Both the position numbers and the translations under genes were made by a program. From assembly GCA_944324315.1 (NCBI GenBank), contig CALUVW010000015.1, positions 1 through 50,038 of the forward strand: DNA of 50,038 nucleotides, read 5' to 3'. The notes beneath the pieces were generated by a model. That model ran no database searches and had not been told where the DNA came from. It was given only the letters and a program-made list of their open reading frames with translations. Below, piece by piece: positions 6,260 to 25,495 of the stretch (its first letter is position 1; the number at the start of each line of letters is the position of its first letter). This DNA is from Candidatus Gastranaerophilales bacterium. GTDB lineage: Bacteria > Cyanobacteriota > Vampirovibrionia > Gastranaerophilales > Gastranaerophilaceae.

Positions 6260-6289
6260 AAAGATGGTTTTAACCATCTTTTTTTATTT
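6260..6289 (+). terminator. Rho-independent terminator
   Basis: A perfect AAGATGGTT/AACCATCTT stem with a minimal TT loop is followed by seven T. It ends the transcript of the small gene at 5945-6226 and insulates the riboswitch that follows. Confidence 0.88.
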
Positions 6290-6372
6290 TATTAATAAAT
6301 TTATTTTGTAAATTTGTTTAATATTTATCTCAAAAAAATTGACTTAAAAATCTGCTTATTTTACTCTTTTGA

Positions 6373-6514
6373 ATAAGAGGGAATGGAGTGAATATCTCCA
6401 GCTGTGCCGCAACCGTAAAAGCCGGAATACTCGGAAAAACTTATTTCCTGCGAGCATTAGGAGTAAGATATATTTTTCTCAGTTGTCCTCTTATGAATTA
6501 AAATAGCAAGAGGA
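6373..6514 (+). promoter_or_regulatory. Cobalamin riboswitch upstream of an unknown cluster
   Basis: The cobalamin aptamer core is visible in order: GAATGGAGTGAATATCTCC, then CTGTGCCGCAACCGTAAAAG, then the box GCCGGAATACTCGG. A closing stem pairs TAAGAGG (6374-6380) with CCTCTTA (6487-6493). The same segment, TCCTCTT (6486-6492), is also perfectly complementary to AAGAGGA (6508-6514). AAGAGGA is the ribosome site of the gene at 6522 and is followed by six T. The two pairings exclude each other. If ligand stabilises the closing stem, the ribosome site or terminator hairpin opens, which predicts a B12-ON switch. That direction is inference; most known cobalamin riboswitches are OFF. Confidence 0.85.
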
Positions 6515-6521
6515 TTTTTTA

Positions 6522-7229
6522 ATGTCGCTTACGGCAGTACAAACAAACAGTACAAAGGTAGGAACTTGTCCGCATGGATTGCCTTTAGGGGCATGCCCTA
6601 TATGTAACGGCATGGGCGGAGGCGGCATGAAAAAAGCTGACTTTTCAGCTAAACCCGGAGAAATGAGCTGGAACGAATGTGCAGCAATAGGGGCTTTCTT
6701 AAAAGCTCAACAACAGGCAAAACTTCAACGGGAACAAGATGCGCAGAATTTTGCTCTAAGGGTTCAGGCATTTCAAAATGCATTGATAAATTCAAGCCAG
6801 AAACTTGCAAATATTGCACAATTTTTTACTAACAACACACCGGCAATAATTGCAAAACCTGTAAACTTTGTATTAAATACTGTTGTCGGAGGTATGTTAA
6901 GAACAATCGCAAACATCCCTGCAACTATCTCAAATGCAATACAAACAATTCAGCAAAAATTATCGGATATTTCAGATAAATTAACTGCAATGTTTGGAGA
7001 AATAAAAGCCTCAATTGAAAAGAAAATATCAGAAGCATTTAAAGATTTGAAAAAGAAAGTTAAATCATTGTTCTCTATATTTCAGCCTATGGATACTGAT
7101 AACGATGATAAGCAGATTGATGAAACCAAAAAAGCTTTTGAATTAAGAACATTTATACATGAACTTTACAAAAAGCTGACCGAAAATGAAAAGGATTTAA
7201 AAGAAAATGACAATCAGCCCGCTTCGTGA
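6522..7229 (+). CDS. Hypothetical protein with CPHG-CPIC zinc-type motif
   Basis: The N-terminus carries TCPHGLPLGACPICNGMGGG, so Cys16, His18, Cys25 and Cys28 are spaced like a small zinc site. I recognise this signature as recurrent in Gastranaerophilales proteins but know of no assigned function. The rest of the 235 residues is predicted to be mostly amphipathic helix (repeated QKL, TISNAIQTIQQKLSDISDKL). No signal peptide or certain membrane segment is seen; a weakly hydrophobic stretch lies at about residues 112-130. The ATG follows AAGAGGA, which the riboswitch can mask. It overlaps the next gene by 23 bases, so the two are co-translated and probably work together. Confidence 0.8.
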   Translation: MSLTAVQTNSTKVGTCPHGLPLGACPICNGMGGGGMKKADFSAKPGEMSWNECAAIGAFLKAQQQAKLQREQDAQNFALRVQAFQNALINSSQKLANIAQFFTNNTPAIIAKPVNFVLNTVVGGMLRTIANIPATISNAIQTIQQKLSDISDKLTAMFGEIKASIEKKISEAFKDLKKKVKSLFSIFQPMDTDNDDKQIDETKKAFELRTFIHELYKKLTENEKDLKENDNQPAS

Positions 7230-9304: not shown

Positions 9305-10459
9305 ATGGGAATGGCAGCATCACAAGCTAGATTTCTAGGTTTGACAGCCAGGAAAACCAATGTTGAATTTGAAGGTCAACAGATTAACCAACAAAGAACA
9401 ACATTGTCTAACCAGTCTGCTAACTACTACAACGATTTGTTGGGTATGTCAGTACCGGTTCCGCCGTCTGTCGATGATTACACAAAGACTGTGTATACTT
9501 TCGAGGATGGAGCTTTAACAAACCAGATTACCGCAATGATTGCTCAGGGGGACGGAACTTATACGGTAAGTTATCTGAGACAATGGAAGGATGATTTTGC
9601 AGTTGTTTCTGCAACAACAAGTATTGTTAATACTCCGGATAAAGAAAACGGTCCGTTCTATGTCGGCTCTACAAAATTAAGGGATATGTCGGATGCAATT
9701 ACTTATGACATAGATGGTACTACAGCTTATTATAATTCTGAAGATCAAAAATATTATACAGATCCGAATTTTACTGCAGGAACTGAAGTTGATACAACAG
9801 ATAAAACGGTTAAACTAAACAGTGAAGATGAATACTTAAAAACTCTTTCTCCTGATCAAATTGTAAATCTGCAGAAAGAAGAAGAACAATATTTATCTCT
9901 GCTTGAAGAAAAATACGGTACGGGTAACTATCTTGTAAGATACGTTAAAGACACTACAACAGGAGAATACAATCCGTATTTTTATAAACTTTCGGATTTA
10001 CAGACAGCTAACTATGATAATAACGGTAACTCTCAATCAAATATTAACTGTTATAAAATAGGAAGCGAAACAAAATCCGAAGAAGTGAAAGCCTCCACCG
10101 GCTGCAAGATAGAAAAAGACAGTTCAGGTCGTTATATTAATATAACAATACCTCAGTATGATGAGTCAGGCAATCCGATTGCAGATACAGGTGTAACTTA
10201 TGCACTCACAACATCTACAGTTACCGATCAGGATGCATACGATGATGCTATGAACCAGTATGAGTTTGAAAAATATGAATATGATCAAACAATACAAGAA
10301 ATTAACGCAAAAATAGAAATAGTTCAGGCTCAGGACAAAAACCTTGAACTGAGACTAAAACAACTCGATACAGAACAAGATGCTATTTCAACAGAAATGG
10401 ACGCTGTTCAAAAAGTTATTGAAAAAAACACAGAATCAACATTCAAAACATTCGGGTAG
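9305..10459 (+). CDS. MGMAASQAR-type protein with terminal helices and variable middle
   Basis: The N-terminus (MGMAASQARFLGLTARKTNV) is predicted helix and matches the product of 23810-25495. The C-terminus of both is a coiled coil ending in KNTESTFKTFG or KNIEKSFKRYNA. Between them lies a divergent, Thr/Asp/Asn/Tyr-rich region (about residues 60-310) that looks like a beta-rich domain. Two conserved terminal helices around a variable centre is the architecture of flagellin and hook-associated proteins, but no flagellin motif is present and no flagellar gene is nearby. No Sec signal peptide is seen, so export by a type III-like or unknown route is possible. I recognise the start as common in Gastranaerophilales, function unknown. 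The ribosome site is GAAAGGAAG. Confidence 0.8.
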   Translation: MGMAASQARFLGLTARKTNVEFEGQQINQQRTTLSNQSANYYNDLLGMSVPVPPSVDDYTKTVYTFEDGALTNQITAMIAQGDGTYTVSYLRQWKDDFAVVSATTSIVNTPDKENGPFYVGSTKLRDMSDAITYDIDGTTAYYNSEDQKYYTDPNFTAGTEVDTTDKTVKLNSEDEYLKTLSPDQIVNLQKEEEQYLSLLEEKYGTGNYLVRYVKDTTTGEYNPYFYKLSDLQTANYDNNGNSQSNINCYKIGSETKSEEVKASTGCKIEKDSSGRYINITIPQYDESGNPIADTGVTYALTTSTVTDQDAYDDAMNQYEFEKYEYDQTIQEINAKIEIVQAQDKNLELRLKQLDTEQDAISTEMDAVQKVIEKNTESTFKTFG

Positions 10460-20164: not shown

Positions 20165-20193
20165 TTGACAAAGTTCATACAATATTATAAAAT
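20165..20193 (+). promoter_or_regulatory. Promoter of the nrdD-nrdG operon
   Basis: TTGACA (20165-20170) and TAAAAT (20188-20193) are spaced by 17 bases. The predicted start point lies just before the cobalamin riboswitch. Confidence 0.7.
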
Positions 20194-20199
20194 TTAAGT

Positions 20200-20341
20200 A
20201 CTACTGTAAGGAAAGCATGGGTGAAATTCCCACACTGGACCGCAGCCGTGTCATATTTACAAAGTTTGTAAATTGACCTCTTTAAAGAAAAGAGATAGTC
20301 GGAATGCTTGCAGAAGTTGATGTTACCACGGAAATCTGGGA
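20200..20341 (+). promoter_or_regulatory. Cobalamin riboswitch of nrdD
   Basis: The aptamer core reads GGAAAGCATGGGTGAAATTC, then CCACACTGGACCGCAGCCGT, then AGTCGGAATGCTTGC. AAGCAT pairs with ATGCTT as the P2 stem, and the GGGTGAA and CCGCAGCCGT boxes match the consensus. Downstream, AAATCT-GGG-AGATTT (20332-20346) can fold with the GGGAG ribosome site in its loop and stem, so translational control is likely. Repression by B12 of a B12-independent ribonucleotide reductase is the known logic for class I and class III enzymes in species that also have the class II enzyme. Confidence 0.92.
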
Positions 20342-20352
20342 GATTTTTTATT

Positions 20353-22203
20353 ATGAACAATACAATTTTGAATGACAACAAAGTTGTCAATTTGGACACC
20401 GCCAAACGTGCGTTTATGTCAAATCCTGTTGCATCTGACAAAGATGTAAACATTAATCTTGTTGAAGGGTATTTAAAAAAACTTGATTGGAAAGTTAATG
20501 AAAATTCAAATATGGCTTATTCAATTCAAGGATTGAATAATTATATTTCGTCCGAAATAAGCAAGCAGTACTGGCTGAATAAAATCTATCCTGTAGAGAT
20601 TAAAAATGCTCACCTTAATGGGGATATTCATATTCATGACTTGAATATAATTTCAGTTTATTGTGTCGGATGGGATTTAAAAGATTTGTTGAGTGAAGGT
20701 TTTACAGGTGTAAGAGGAAAAATAGAAAGTGCGCCTGCAAAACATTTTAGAACTGCTTTAGGACAAATTGTGAATTTTATGTATACTATGCAGGGCGAAG
20801 CTGCTGGGGCTCAGGCTTTTTCTAATTTTGATACACTTCTTGCTCCTTTTATAAGTTATGATAATCTTGATTACAAGCAGGTAAAACAGGCATTACAGGA
20901 ATTTATTTTTAATATGAATGTCCCTACCCGTGTAGGATTTCAGACTCCTTTTACAAATATTACAATGGATTTAAACGTTCCTTCATATTATGCTGAACAG
21001 CCGGTTATAATAGGCGGAGAGCTTCAGGAGCGTACTTATAAAGAGTTTCAAAAAGAAATGGATATGCTTAATAAAGCTTTTTTTGAAGTGATGATGGAAG
21101 GCGACAATGCAGGACGTGTATTTACATTTCCAATTCCAACATATAATATTACAAAAGATTTTGACTGGGATAATGAAAATATCAACGGACTCTGGGAAAT
21201 GGCTGCAAAATATGGCATTCCTTATTTTTCCAACTTTATTAATTCGGATATGTCACCTGAGGATGCCCGTTCTATGTGCTGTCGTTTGAGAATTGACAAC
21301 AGAGAACTTGAATACAGAGGCGGAGGTCTTTTTGGCTCAAATCCTCTGACTGGTTCTGTCGGGGTTGTTACAATTAATCTTCCTAAAATTGCAGAGATTT
21401 CGAAAACTAAAGGAGAATTTCTTGAAAGGCTTGCACAAAAGATGGAACTTGCAAAAGAAAGTCTTGAGATTAAACGTAAGCTGCTGGAAGATTTGACAGA
21501 TAAAGATTTGTACCCTTATACAAAATTTTATTTAAGAGATATTAAAGCCCGCTTTGGTGTTTACTGGAAAAATCACTTCTCTACAATCGGATTAATCGGT
21601 ATGAATGAAGCTTGTTTAAATCTTCTTGGTTCTGATATCGGAAGTTTTAGAGGGAAACAATTTGCTCTTGAGGTTATGGATTATATGAGAGCAAAAATCG
21701 TTGAATTTCAAAAACAAACAGGCAACAACTATAACCTTGAGGCAACGCCAGGGGAAGGATCATCCTACAGGCTGGCAAAACTTGATAAAGAAAAATACCC
21801 GTATTATACAAATTCTACCCAGTTACCAGTTAATTATACGGATGATATTTTTGAAGTTCTTGATCATCAGGATGATTTGCAAACCAAATATACAGGCGGG
21901 ACGGTTGTTCATATTTATGCAGGAGAAAGAATACAAAGTACTGAAACAATGAAAAGTCTAGTTAAAAAGGTTTGCAATAATTATCATCTACCATATTTTA
22001 CATTTTCGCCGACATTCAGTACCTGCCCTAACCACGGGTATATCTCAGGTGAACATTTTACCTGTCCTGAATGCGGTGAAAGTTGCGAAGTTTATTCCCG
22101 TGTTGTAGGTTATATAAGACCTGTTCAACAATGGAATAAAGGTAAAAAACAAGAGTTTGCAGATAGAAAAGAATTTAAAATTGAGGAATGTCAATGCAAA
22201 TAG
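20353..22203 (+). CDS. nrdD: Anaerobic (class III) ribonucleoside-triphosphate reductase
   Basis: This glycyl-radical enzyme reduces ribonucleotides without oxygen. The radical glycine is Gly586 in SRVVGYIRPVQQWNKGK near the C-terminus. The preceding zinc site shows CPNH and CPECGESC, and the catalytic cysteine region is SMCCRLRIDNRELEYRGGG. I see no N-terminal ATP-cone; the 616-residue chain starts directly with the fold, like the Thermotoga form. The frame is open to 20308, but that ATG lies inside the riboswitch. ATG 20353 follows GGGAG and is chosen. It overlaps nrdG by ten bases. Regulation is by the cobalamin riboswitch upstream. Confidence 0.95.
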   Translation: MNNTILNDNKVVNLDTAKRAFMSNPVASDKDVNINLVEGYLKKLDWKVNENSNMAYSIQGLNNYISSEISKQYWLNKIYPVEIKNAHLNGDIHIHDLNIISVYCVGWDLKDLLSEGFTGVRGKIESAPAKHFRTALGQIVNFMYTMQGEAAGAQAFSNFDTLLAPFISYDNLDYKQVKQALQEFIFNMNVPTRVGFQTPFTNITMDLNVPSYYAEQPVIIGGELQERTYKEFQKEMDMLNKAFFEVMMEGDNAGRVFTFPIPTYNITKDFDWDNENINGLWEMAAKYGIPYFSNFINSDMSPEDARSMCCRLRIDNRELEYRGGGLFGSNPLTGSVGVVTINLPKIAEISKTKGEFLERLAQKMELAKESLEIKRKLLEDLTDKDLYPYTKFYLRDIKARFGVYWKNHFSTIGLIGMNEACLNLLGSDIGSFRGKQFALEVMDYMRAKIVEFQKQTGNNYNLEATPGEGSSYRLAKLDKEKYPYYTNSTQLPVNYTDDIFEVLDHQDDLQTKYTGGTVVHIYAGERIQSTETMKSLVKKVCNNYHLPYFTFSPTFSTCPNHGYISGEHFTCPECGESCEVYSRVVGYIRPVQQWNKGKKQEFADRKEFKIEECQCK

Positions 22204-23785: not shown

Positions 23786-23811
23786 AAAAAGCCTGAATTT
23801 TCAGGCTTTTT
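23786..23811. terminator. Bidirectional terminator
   Basis: AAAAAGCCTGAA and TTCAGGCTTTTT form a perfect stem between the convergent acyltransferase and MGMAAGQAR genes. It has T-runs on both strands and ends right at the stop codon of the minus-strand gene. Confidence 0.9.
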
Positions 23812-25495
23812 ATGCGTTATATCTTTTAAATGATTTTTCAATATTTTTGGATATTGTATTTTTTACGGTATCATATTCTGTTGTAAGTGAAGAAATTTCT
23901 GTATCAAGATTTTTCATTTTTAAATCTATTTCTTCTTCTTTCGCATTAAGTTTTGTTTTTTCTGTTGAATATTTTGCTTCAGCCTGAGCTATTGCAGTGT
24001 CGTCGGAAATTTCTTTTATATATGTATCTGTGGCGTAATTCCCCTGATAATAATACCCGTCATCTTTAACTTTAGTTACATATAGCATTCCGCTTTGAAG
24101 CATTTGTTGAAGATAATCGCTGTCATTTATATTGTCATTTTCTGTCCAGCCGTTCGCACAAATCTGGTTGAACAATGCATCATAGAATGTTGACTGAGCT
24201 AAATCATCACTGGAGACAGAAGTTCCTGTATTGATTGTATAAGTATATGAATATTTTAATTCATTGTCTGTAACAAGTCTGTTATCAGTGTCTTTACCAC
24301 GTTTTCCAAGTGATACAGAGTATTTTTCTTCTCCTTCGGAATTTGTTTTTGACCATCCATCCATAGCCTTAACAAACAAAGTTAAGAAAGCTTGTGCAAT
24401 ATTGTTGAGGTTAATTGCACCGGCACTGTTTCTGCCGCGCATCTTTCTCTTTTTATTTTTACTGTATACGAAACCAACGTAATCTACACTGTTTCTTACA
24501 GACGCATCTCTGTTGGTGTCGGTTTCATTATAGGCGCTGCCTTCAGAACTTATTTTGTCGTATAACGTGTCATTCTCACCGAGAGAATCGCCAAAATCTG
24601 CAAATAATATTTGTTCAATTTGATCTCTTGCCATTGCAAAAGCTTCTTCTGTTGCATCATCCACAATAAGAGCTGAGCCGAGAGATTCTTCTATCCAATT
24701 AAGGAAGTTTGGGATTACGTTTTTATTGATATATTCAATTTGGTTCGATGGTATACGTTCATCATCAGCACTTGTAAATCTTATAATTACTTGATCTTCT
24801 GTATCTGTACTCAATAAATCTGCAATATTTAGGTCCTCAGATTGTGTGTAGTTTTCATACCAATTAAGATTAGGGCTATTTTCTCCTGTAATTATTGCGA
24901 TGTCGCCTCCGTTAGAGGTCGTTTCATCTACCTTTAAAGTATATAGTGATGTAGTACTATTATTCAAATAGCTGATTAAGTCATTTATATCTCCGGTTGT
25001 AGTAGAGTTTGCAACAGTAATATCTCCGCCGAAACCGGCAGTCTGATTGTATGGTAAGCCCTGAATTTTTTCTGCTAAAGTTTCAGTTATTAAGCCGTTA
25101 TTATATAAACCTTCAATAAATTTATTACGTGTTGAATCTGATGGTAATGTTCCGAGACCTTCCTGCGGTATGCCGGCTGCTCGTGCAGCAGCAGCATATT
25201 TGCTGTCTAAAGTTACTCTGCCTGCAGAATCTGTTATTGTAACAGGCATGTAGTCATTAAGCGCAGATGGCGTCATTAAAATATTATAAGATAAAGGTGT
25301 GGTTGAATCACCTGTACCATAATAATCATAGACTAATTTTGTTTGATTGAGAGAATTTTCATATTCATTTGAAAGATCTGCAAGCTGTCGTGACAATGCT
25401 ATCTTTTGATGAGAAAGACGCATTGATTGATATTCACAGTCAGATTTTCTCGCTGTGATACTCAATAATCTCGCTTGTCCGGCAGCTAATCCCAT
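23810..25495 (-). CDS. MGMAAGQAR-type protein, large paralogue of 9305-10459
   Basis: It has the same layout as the product of 9305-10459: an N-terminal helix pair (MGLAAGQARLLSITARKSDC, then QSMRLSHQKIALSRQLADLS), a long variable middle and a C-terminal coiled coil (about 510-561, LDTEISSLTTEYDTVKNTIS). The middle (about 75-500) is rich in Asp, Asn, Ser and Thr and contains a repeated ENDT/NDSD type of acidic turn. At 561 residues it is 177 longer than its paralogue. There is no Sec signal. The leader before the ATG, AAAGGAAAATC, resembles that of the paralogue (AAAGGAAGATC), with an unusually long gap to the start. Function is unknown; an exported filament or surface protein is one guess. 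Confidence 0.8.
   Translation of the reverse strand: MGLAAGQARLLSITARKSDCEYQSMRLSHQKIALSRQLADLSNEYENSLNQTKLVYDYYGTGDSTTPLSYNILMTPSALNDYMPVTITDSAGRVTLDSKYAAAARAAGIPQEGLGTLPSDSTRNKFIEGLYNNGLITETLAEKIQGLPYNQTAGFGGDITVANSTTTGDINDLISYLNNSTTSLYTLKVDETTSNGGDIAIITGENSPNLNWYENYTQSEDLNIADLLSTDTEDQVIIRFTSADDERIPSNQIEYINKNVIPNFLNWIEESLGSALIVDDATEEAFAMARDQIEQILFADFGDSLGENDTLYDKISSEGSAYNETDTNRDASVRNSVDYVGFVYSKNKKRKMRGRNSAGAINLNNIAQAFLTLFVKAMDGWSKTNSEGEEKYSVSLGKRGKDTDNRLVTDNELKYSYTYTINTGTSVSSDDLAQSTFYDALFNQICANGWTENDNINDSDYLQQMLQSGMLYVTKVKDDGYYYQGNYATDTYIKEISDDTAIAQAEAKYSTEKTKLNAKEEEIDLKMKNLDTEISSLTTEYDTVKNTISKNIEKSFKRYNA

Follow-up and report, generated by a model that had tools for sequence, protein, structure and literature searches.

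The window, by which we mean the whole stretch of 50,038 nucleotides analysed here, comes from a Candidatus Gastranaerophilales genome (1.88 Mb, 49 contigs, 99.54% complete). The locus studied is the leader and coding region of a gene whose product carries a CPHG-x5-CPIC motif (the CPHG gene), together with two genes downstream of it. These encode products of 490 and 167 amino acids, and they follow the CPHG gene in 79 of 80 and 78 of 80 loci, respectively. A predicted intrinsic terminator separates the upstream gene(s) from the riboswitch transcript. The coordinates of all features are collected in Table 1.

Table 1. Features of the CPHG locus and of the nrdD leader (window coordinates)
Feature	Position	Strand	Basis
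Intrinsic terminator of upstream gene(s), 9-bp stem, 4-nt loop, T tail	6260..6281	+	terminator scan
Promoter-like TTGACT (6339-6344), 17 nt, TACTCT (6362-6367)	6339..6367	+	script search
AdoCbl-II aptamer core (RF01689)	6366..6437	+	42.0 bits vs 36.5
Segment X, putative anti-anti-ribosome-site: AAGAGG (6375-6380) plus G6381	6375..6381	+	sequence, comparison, covariation
P3	6377-6379:6430-6432	+	Rfam alignment, comparison of leaders
J3/4, GGAAT	6380-6384	+	Rfam alignment, sequence
P4	6385-6388:6396-6399	+	Rfam alignment, sequence
P5 (UGU:GCA), 6403-6405:6409-6411; loop L5 GCC, 6406-6408	6403..6411	+	Rfam alignment
P6	6413-6415:6423-6425	+	Rfam alignment, sequence
J6/3, AAUA	6426-6429	+	Rfam alignment, sequence
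Segment Q, CTC, 3′ strand of P3 just past J6/3	6430..6432	+	comparison of leaders
P13 (6440-6447:6460-6467); L13 with GAGCA (6452-6456), kissing partner of L5	6440..6467	+	comparison
Segment R, pairs with 6429-6439 (overlapping Q) with one mismatch in the ligand-free model	6473..6483	+	sequence reading
Segment Y, putative anti-ribosome-site, TCCTCTT	6486..6492	+	sequence, covariation
Segment Z, AAGAGGA (6508-6514; ribosome site, 3′ arm of hairpin), plus T6 (6515-6520)	6508..6520	+	covariation, T-run count
Regulated gene, 235 aa, N-terminal CPHG-x5-CPIC motif	6522..7229	+	ORF, homologue comparison
Next two genes, same orientation: 490 aa (two TM-like segments) and 167 aa	7207..9196	+	conserved neighbours
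Second, sub-threshold cobalamin riboswitch, upstream of nrdD	20187-20345		RF00174, 18.2 bits
nrdD	20497-22173		TIGR02487 match

The aptamer and its P3 helix

A covariance-model scan of the whole window matched positions 6366-6437 to the Rfam family AdoCbl-II (RF01689) at 42.0 bits (E = 8.6e-07), above the gathering score of 36.5 bits. This bears out the claim, made earlier in a sequence-only reading, that a cobalamin riboswitch lies here; cobalamin is its putative ligand. RF00174 was tried as a better family for this leader and rejected, with only 24.4 bits against a gate of 31.5. The J3/4 segment contains GGAA (6380-6383), which PMC11260477 describes as a class IIb motif. The UCU at J6/3, which the same article reports as a class IIb trait, is absent from the window, which has AAUA, and the element is therefore not filed as class IIb. 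Among relatives, G[AG]AAN was found at J3/4 in 90/90 parsed leaders, a count made with a parser that itself demanded that motif.

The CPHG protein is encoded in 98 of the 146 genomes searched, and the leaders of all 98 were collected; relatives found through this protein are labelled, among others, Candidatus Gastranaerophilales, Scatousia and Melainabacteria. P3 could be parsed in 90 of these leaders, so that by this strict rule a cobalamin element lies upstream of the gene family in 90 of 98 genomes. Eight leaders were dropped (G092, G093, G095, G098, G105, G107, G108 and G109), of which seven have the aptamer core in looser scans and G105 does not. Closure of P3 directly after J6/3, with X paired to Q, was found across genera, the helix having just 3 bp in the window. 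From innermost to outermost, its pairs were standard in 90, 89 and 88 of the 90 leaders; among the 44 genus representatives the counts were 44, 44 and 42. The third pair occurs as GC, AT, GT, CG and TA, which are compensatory changes. When four positions were scored in the 44 genus representatives, 153 cells were paired; sliding the partners by 1-3 bases left 34-88, and shuffling them 1000 times gave 129.6 (maximum 141). In divergent members P3 extends to 8-10 bp, for example 9 bp in G082 (GTTGAAAAG:CTTTTCAAC), as measured by a scan that misplaced the 5′ anchor in G017, G039, G058 and G077. These comparisons indicate that the ligand-bound partner of segment X is 6430-6432, and not 6486-6492. 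The pairing of 6375-6380 with 6487-6492 had previously been labelled the aptamer-closing stem; the label was wrong, the aptamer's own partner being 6430-6432. That pairing was also considered as an extension of P3, which is impossible because the same bases are already used.

Comparison of the leaders also supports P13 and an L5-L13 kissing loop. The L13 motif served as anchor in 62 of the 90 leaders, the other 28 having none, and in 61 of these 62 it is enclosed by a stem of 4 bp or more. The stem averages 6.3 bp, versus 3.5 bp in shuffled sequences, and shows 55 distinct arm pairs. In a search of 67 nt, made without a chance control, L5 UGCC pairs off with L13 G[AU]GCA in 42/55 leaders, UGGC is accompanied by GC[AU]CA in 4/4, and AGCC by G[AU]GCU in 6/11. 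The minimum-energy fold of the window prefers 6433-6437:6444-6448 to the P13 listed in Table 1, which thus rests on the comparison.

Switching segments and the predicted sign of the switch

The sequence-only reading had named three segments, here X, Y and Z, and on re-reading the window its letters and coordinates for all three were correct; their pairings are mutually exclusive, as it had stated. Segment X comprises the 5′ strand of P3 (GAG, 6377-6379) and the first bases of J3/4. Related leaders were to be compared for compensatory changes in all three segments, and alignment A1 provides this comparison for P3, X:Y and Y:Z. It holds 48 of the 59 listed leaders, the 11 omitted being three empty references and eight leaders with long or unlike platforms. 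Standard pairs filled 97.2% of the cells in P3, 92.0% in Y:Z and 85.9% in X:Y, the last figure being biased upward because the omitted leaders include several with poor X:Y. For each helix 0/500 column shuffles reached the observed value, a count that is not a probability because the leader sequences are related. By this comparison, the complementarity among the three segments exceeds chance.

Individual positions and leaders add to this picture. Five sequences have U-A in place of A-U at the X:Y pair 6376:6491, a position that the clade's 3-bp P3 does not include; the AGGA:TCCT part of X:Y is unavoidable once J3/4 and the ribosome site both contain GGA. Y:Z is kept in 62 of the 90 leaders and the remaining 28 lack it by the rule used, in a listing whose longest-helix rule chose a partner other than TCCT in a number of leaders. 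Counted from that listing with a register of ±1 allowed, X:Y has at least 6 bp in 46 of the 62 leaders with Y:Z, and it is lost while Y:Z is kept in G050, G055, G067, G068, G079 and G085. Three leaders of the same genus (G010, G012 and G028) lack Y:Z and have their start region directly 3′ of P13. Segment R was found by script, as 6433-6439:6473-6479.

The position of X in the message depends on the promoter. The promoter-like element of the window is weak taken alone (4 mismatches versus 4.3 in shuffles), and a stricter promoter scan of the window did not report it. Upstream of most leaders, TTGAC(A/T), 17 nt and TAnnnT recur with a mean of 2.94 mismatches versus 4.31 in shuffled sequences (n = 90), and most often 10-14 nt separate the end of the -10 hexamer from the inner P3 base. 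If the element is right, the RNA would start at ∼6373-6375; the message would then begin with X and have neither P1 nor P2.

Folding of the two states was modelled in the 49 of 90 leaders of the TCCT...GGAT4 form, each RNA starting 6 nt upstream of the inner P3 base. Imposing P3 left the ribosome site more paired than imposing X:Y did in 49/49 leaders, and more paired than it was in the free fold in 42/49. The sequence-only reading had named folding of both states as a check on its B12-ON direction, and in this check the P3 (ligand-type) state is the one with the more paired ribosome site, in favour of B12-OFF. In transcripts ending at Y, X:Y had a mean probability of 0.86, exceeding 0.5 in 47/49 leaders and reaching 0.96 in the window. 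In full-length leaders without ligand, Y:Z dominates the equilibrium in most (mean 0.61 over the 49 leaders), with 0.78 in the window folded together with its untranscribed flank. P3 is unpopulated when the leader is folded with neither ligand nor kissing loop. Relative to the free ensemble, the window's aptamer state costs 6.6 kcal/mol, a figure in which the kissing loop and ligand are not yet counted. Since Y:Z is already dominant at equilibrium, switching is probably kinetic in this model, decided between the synthesis of Y and that of Z.

Because X:Y shares bases with P3 and uses the first GGAA bases of J3/4, it is predicted to be an aptamer-breaking, ligand-free pairing, and this makes the predicted direction B12-OFF. 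We infer, with a probability of roughly 0.85, that the leader is a 5′-terminal riboswitch of the AdoCbl-II type and that B12 binding switches the operon off. When B12 is absent, newly made Y would pair with the 5′-terminal X, and R with Q; this would open the aptamer, so that Z would emerge free and the gene would be on. With B12, P3 (X:Q) and the L5-L13 kissing loop would be locked and Y left free to close on Z, so that the ribosome site would be hidden and the gene off, with termination at the T6 tract possible in addition. The two states would therefore exchange Q:X and Y:Z for Q:R and Y:X. The 6366-6437 element can be viewed as a vitamin B12 sensor at the start of the CPHG mRNA in gut relatives of cyanobacteria, most likely an OFF switch.

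A B12-ON switch, as the sequence-only reading had it, needs X:Y to be the stem that the ligand stabilises, with the ribosome site freed as a result. X:Y is the longer stem (a 9-bp run in the window) and it covaries, and an activating cobalamin riboswitch exists (PMC10653944). However, pairing of X with Y is incompatible with P3, the conserved aptamer helix at 6430-6432, and it uses up J3/4. Y:Z and P13 are not in competition, and other cobalamin riboswitches detected in the order lie before nrdD, genes for TonB receptors and the like, which are typical OFF targets. We consider an ON switch very improbable. Of the earlier interpretation, the cobalamin riboswitch, the exclusive covarying segments and the terminator-like hairpin stand, whereas the comparison places X in P3 and the predicted sign is corrected from ON to OFF. 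There is likewise only a slim chance that the element is constitutive or degenerate, the Y:Z hairpin forming whatever the ligand state. The equilibrium preference for Y:Z in most leaders, even ligand-free, is what such an element would give, but the aptamer core, P13, L5-L13 and X:Y are conserved and covary across genera.

Predicted ribosome-site sequestration and possible termination

Segment Z is the ribosome site at normal spacing from the ATG at 6522 and, as had been noted earlier, it also supplies the 3′ strand of a terminator-like hairpin followed by six T. In the window and 80 loci, GG(A)T5+ was found in 63/67 CPHG-gene starts versus 5/450 other ribosome-site-bearing starts. The Y:Z hairpin of the window has a 15-nt loop on a 7-bp stem, 3 pairs of which are G-C. 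By these features it is a weak terminator, and the terminator scan of the window did not list it. We favour ribosome-site sequestration, with termination possible in addition.

A variant compatible with the OFF reading is that repression acts mainly through transcription termination, the overlap with the ribosome site being incidental. The T-run past the ribosome site, which is almost confined to CPHG-gene starts, argues for this variant, as do a long hairpin with T6 in G038 and terminator-like hairpins separate from the ribosome site in G092 and G097, all three recognised by eye. Against it stand the short stem, few G-C pairs and large loop of the window hairpin, and G040 and G077, in which a hairpin is present by eye without a T-run, as fits translation control. 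We regard predominant termination as possible, at well under even odds.

In a related family of leaders (G089, G095, G099, G104, G108 and G109, or L149, L143, L146, L141, L147 and L145), P13 bears the ribosome site of a tiny ORF of ∼5-8 codons (for example MSGYT, MNIFY, MIITYL, MNIFCLT and MNKIS). Terminator-like hairpins come next, scored at -21.9 kcal/mol in G099 and recognised by eye in the others, followed by the CPHG gene, which has a start of its own. G107, of the same genus as G108, has no such tiny ORF. Judged from this arrangement, the riboswitch may control translation of the leader peptide and, through it, an intrinsic terminator. Interplay between a B12 riboswitch and a uORF is known in M. 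tuberculosis (PMC11260477).

The putatively regulated operon and comparison with known riboswitches

In 41 aligned members of the CPHG family, residues C16, P17, H18, G19, C25, P26, C28 and E160 are invariant and look like a metal site. For the 235-aa product all Pfam matches were sub-cutoff, and NCBIfam gave none. An AlphaFold2 model showed four long helices (mean pLDDT 68.8, pTM 0.35), and is too weak for a fold-based search. The CPHG-x5-CPIC family is order-wide (98 genomes), the rest of the protein being helical by the low-confidence model. Elsewhere in the window, two proteins whose N-termini resemble each other (MGMAASQARFLGLTARK... and MGLAAGQARLLSITARK...) are encoded at 9305-10459 and 23810-25495 (minus strand), and the 9305-10459 protein matched no family above cut-off.

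The source genome encodes a B12-dependent NrdJ and one B12-binding-domain protein above cut-off. A Pfam search limited to BtuC-, BtuF-, TonB-plug- and ECF-type families and the PduO-type adenosyltransferase gave no match to PF01497, PF07715, PF01923, PF01032 or PF12822 in this genome. Since NrdJ is present and the searched B12-uptake families are unmatched, the CPHG operon becomes a candidate for B12 acquisition or handling. That it is, specifically, an unrecognised, B12-repressed cobalamin acquisition or handling system of the Gastranaerophilales is a tentative and rather doubtful proposal. The riboswitch places a conserved, uncharacterised gene family under predicted B12 control in an uncultured gut order.

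The best-scoring B12 riboswitch of the source genome is the one predicted to control the CPHG operon, and a search with RF01689 only found one riboswitch in the genome, a count outside which the nrdD-leader element falls. With permissive settings, 20187-20329 matched RF00174 at 18.2 bits (E = 0.036; gate 31.5). This second element shares its core with leaders of nrdD-type genes in relatives. Its P6 carries an insertion, and the purine-rich ribosome site GGGAG lies next to L13; relatives show the same arrangement (L150, L152 and L156-L160). Repression by B12 of the B12-independent reductase is the usual regulatory logic. Other cobalamin riboswitches of the order or class (L041, L048, L079, L153, L063 and L065) lie before genes for TonB-dependent receptors and a B12-binding protein and, judged from protein starts, before prpB- and cobT-like genes.

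In a search of journal articles outside the subscription literature, we found no paper on B12 riboswitches of Gastranaerophilales. All corrinoid riboswitches known before cobT repress (PMC10653944, introduction). The first activating one is that of Alkalihalobacillus halodurans cobT, in which P13 excludes a terminator (PMC10653944), and a B12-ON switch would be unusual but no longer unprecedented. A cobalamin-type aptamer and a kissing loop are common to cobT and the window. In cobT, P13 and the terminator share bases (PMC10653944), whereas in the window P13 (6440-6467) and Y:Z (6486-6514) do not overlap, and the mutual exclusion of P13 and terminator that marks the activating type was not found. 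In the repressing Priestia megaterium metE riboswitch (PMC10653944), as in the window, the kissing loop and P13 can coexist with the OFF hairpin, with which P13 does not overlap in the model of that paper, and a competing pairing likewise frees the gene without ligand. The metE antiterminator uses the 3′ side of P13, whereas that predicted for the window uses the aptamer's own P3 strand.

With AdoCbl-II/class II riboswitches such as env8 and M. tuberculosis ppe2 the element shares the P3-P6 four-way junction, GGAA at J3/4, the L5-L13 kissing loop with a bulge, a compact aptamer and OFF logic, the last being predicted here. It differs from them in lacking UCU at J6/3 and in regulating an unrelated gene, that for the CPHG protein. 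The same-genus leaders G010, G012 and G028 come close to the env8 layout as presented in PMC10907184. In ppe2 the anti-anti-ribosome-site strand lies in the P6/P7 extension (PMC11260477), whereas in the window this role would fall to the P3/J3-4 strand, at about the point where the RNA begins. The layout would thus be compact, one strand of the aptamer doubling as the switching strand.
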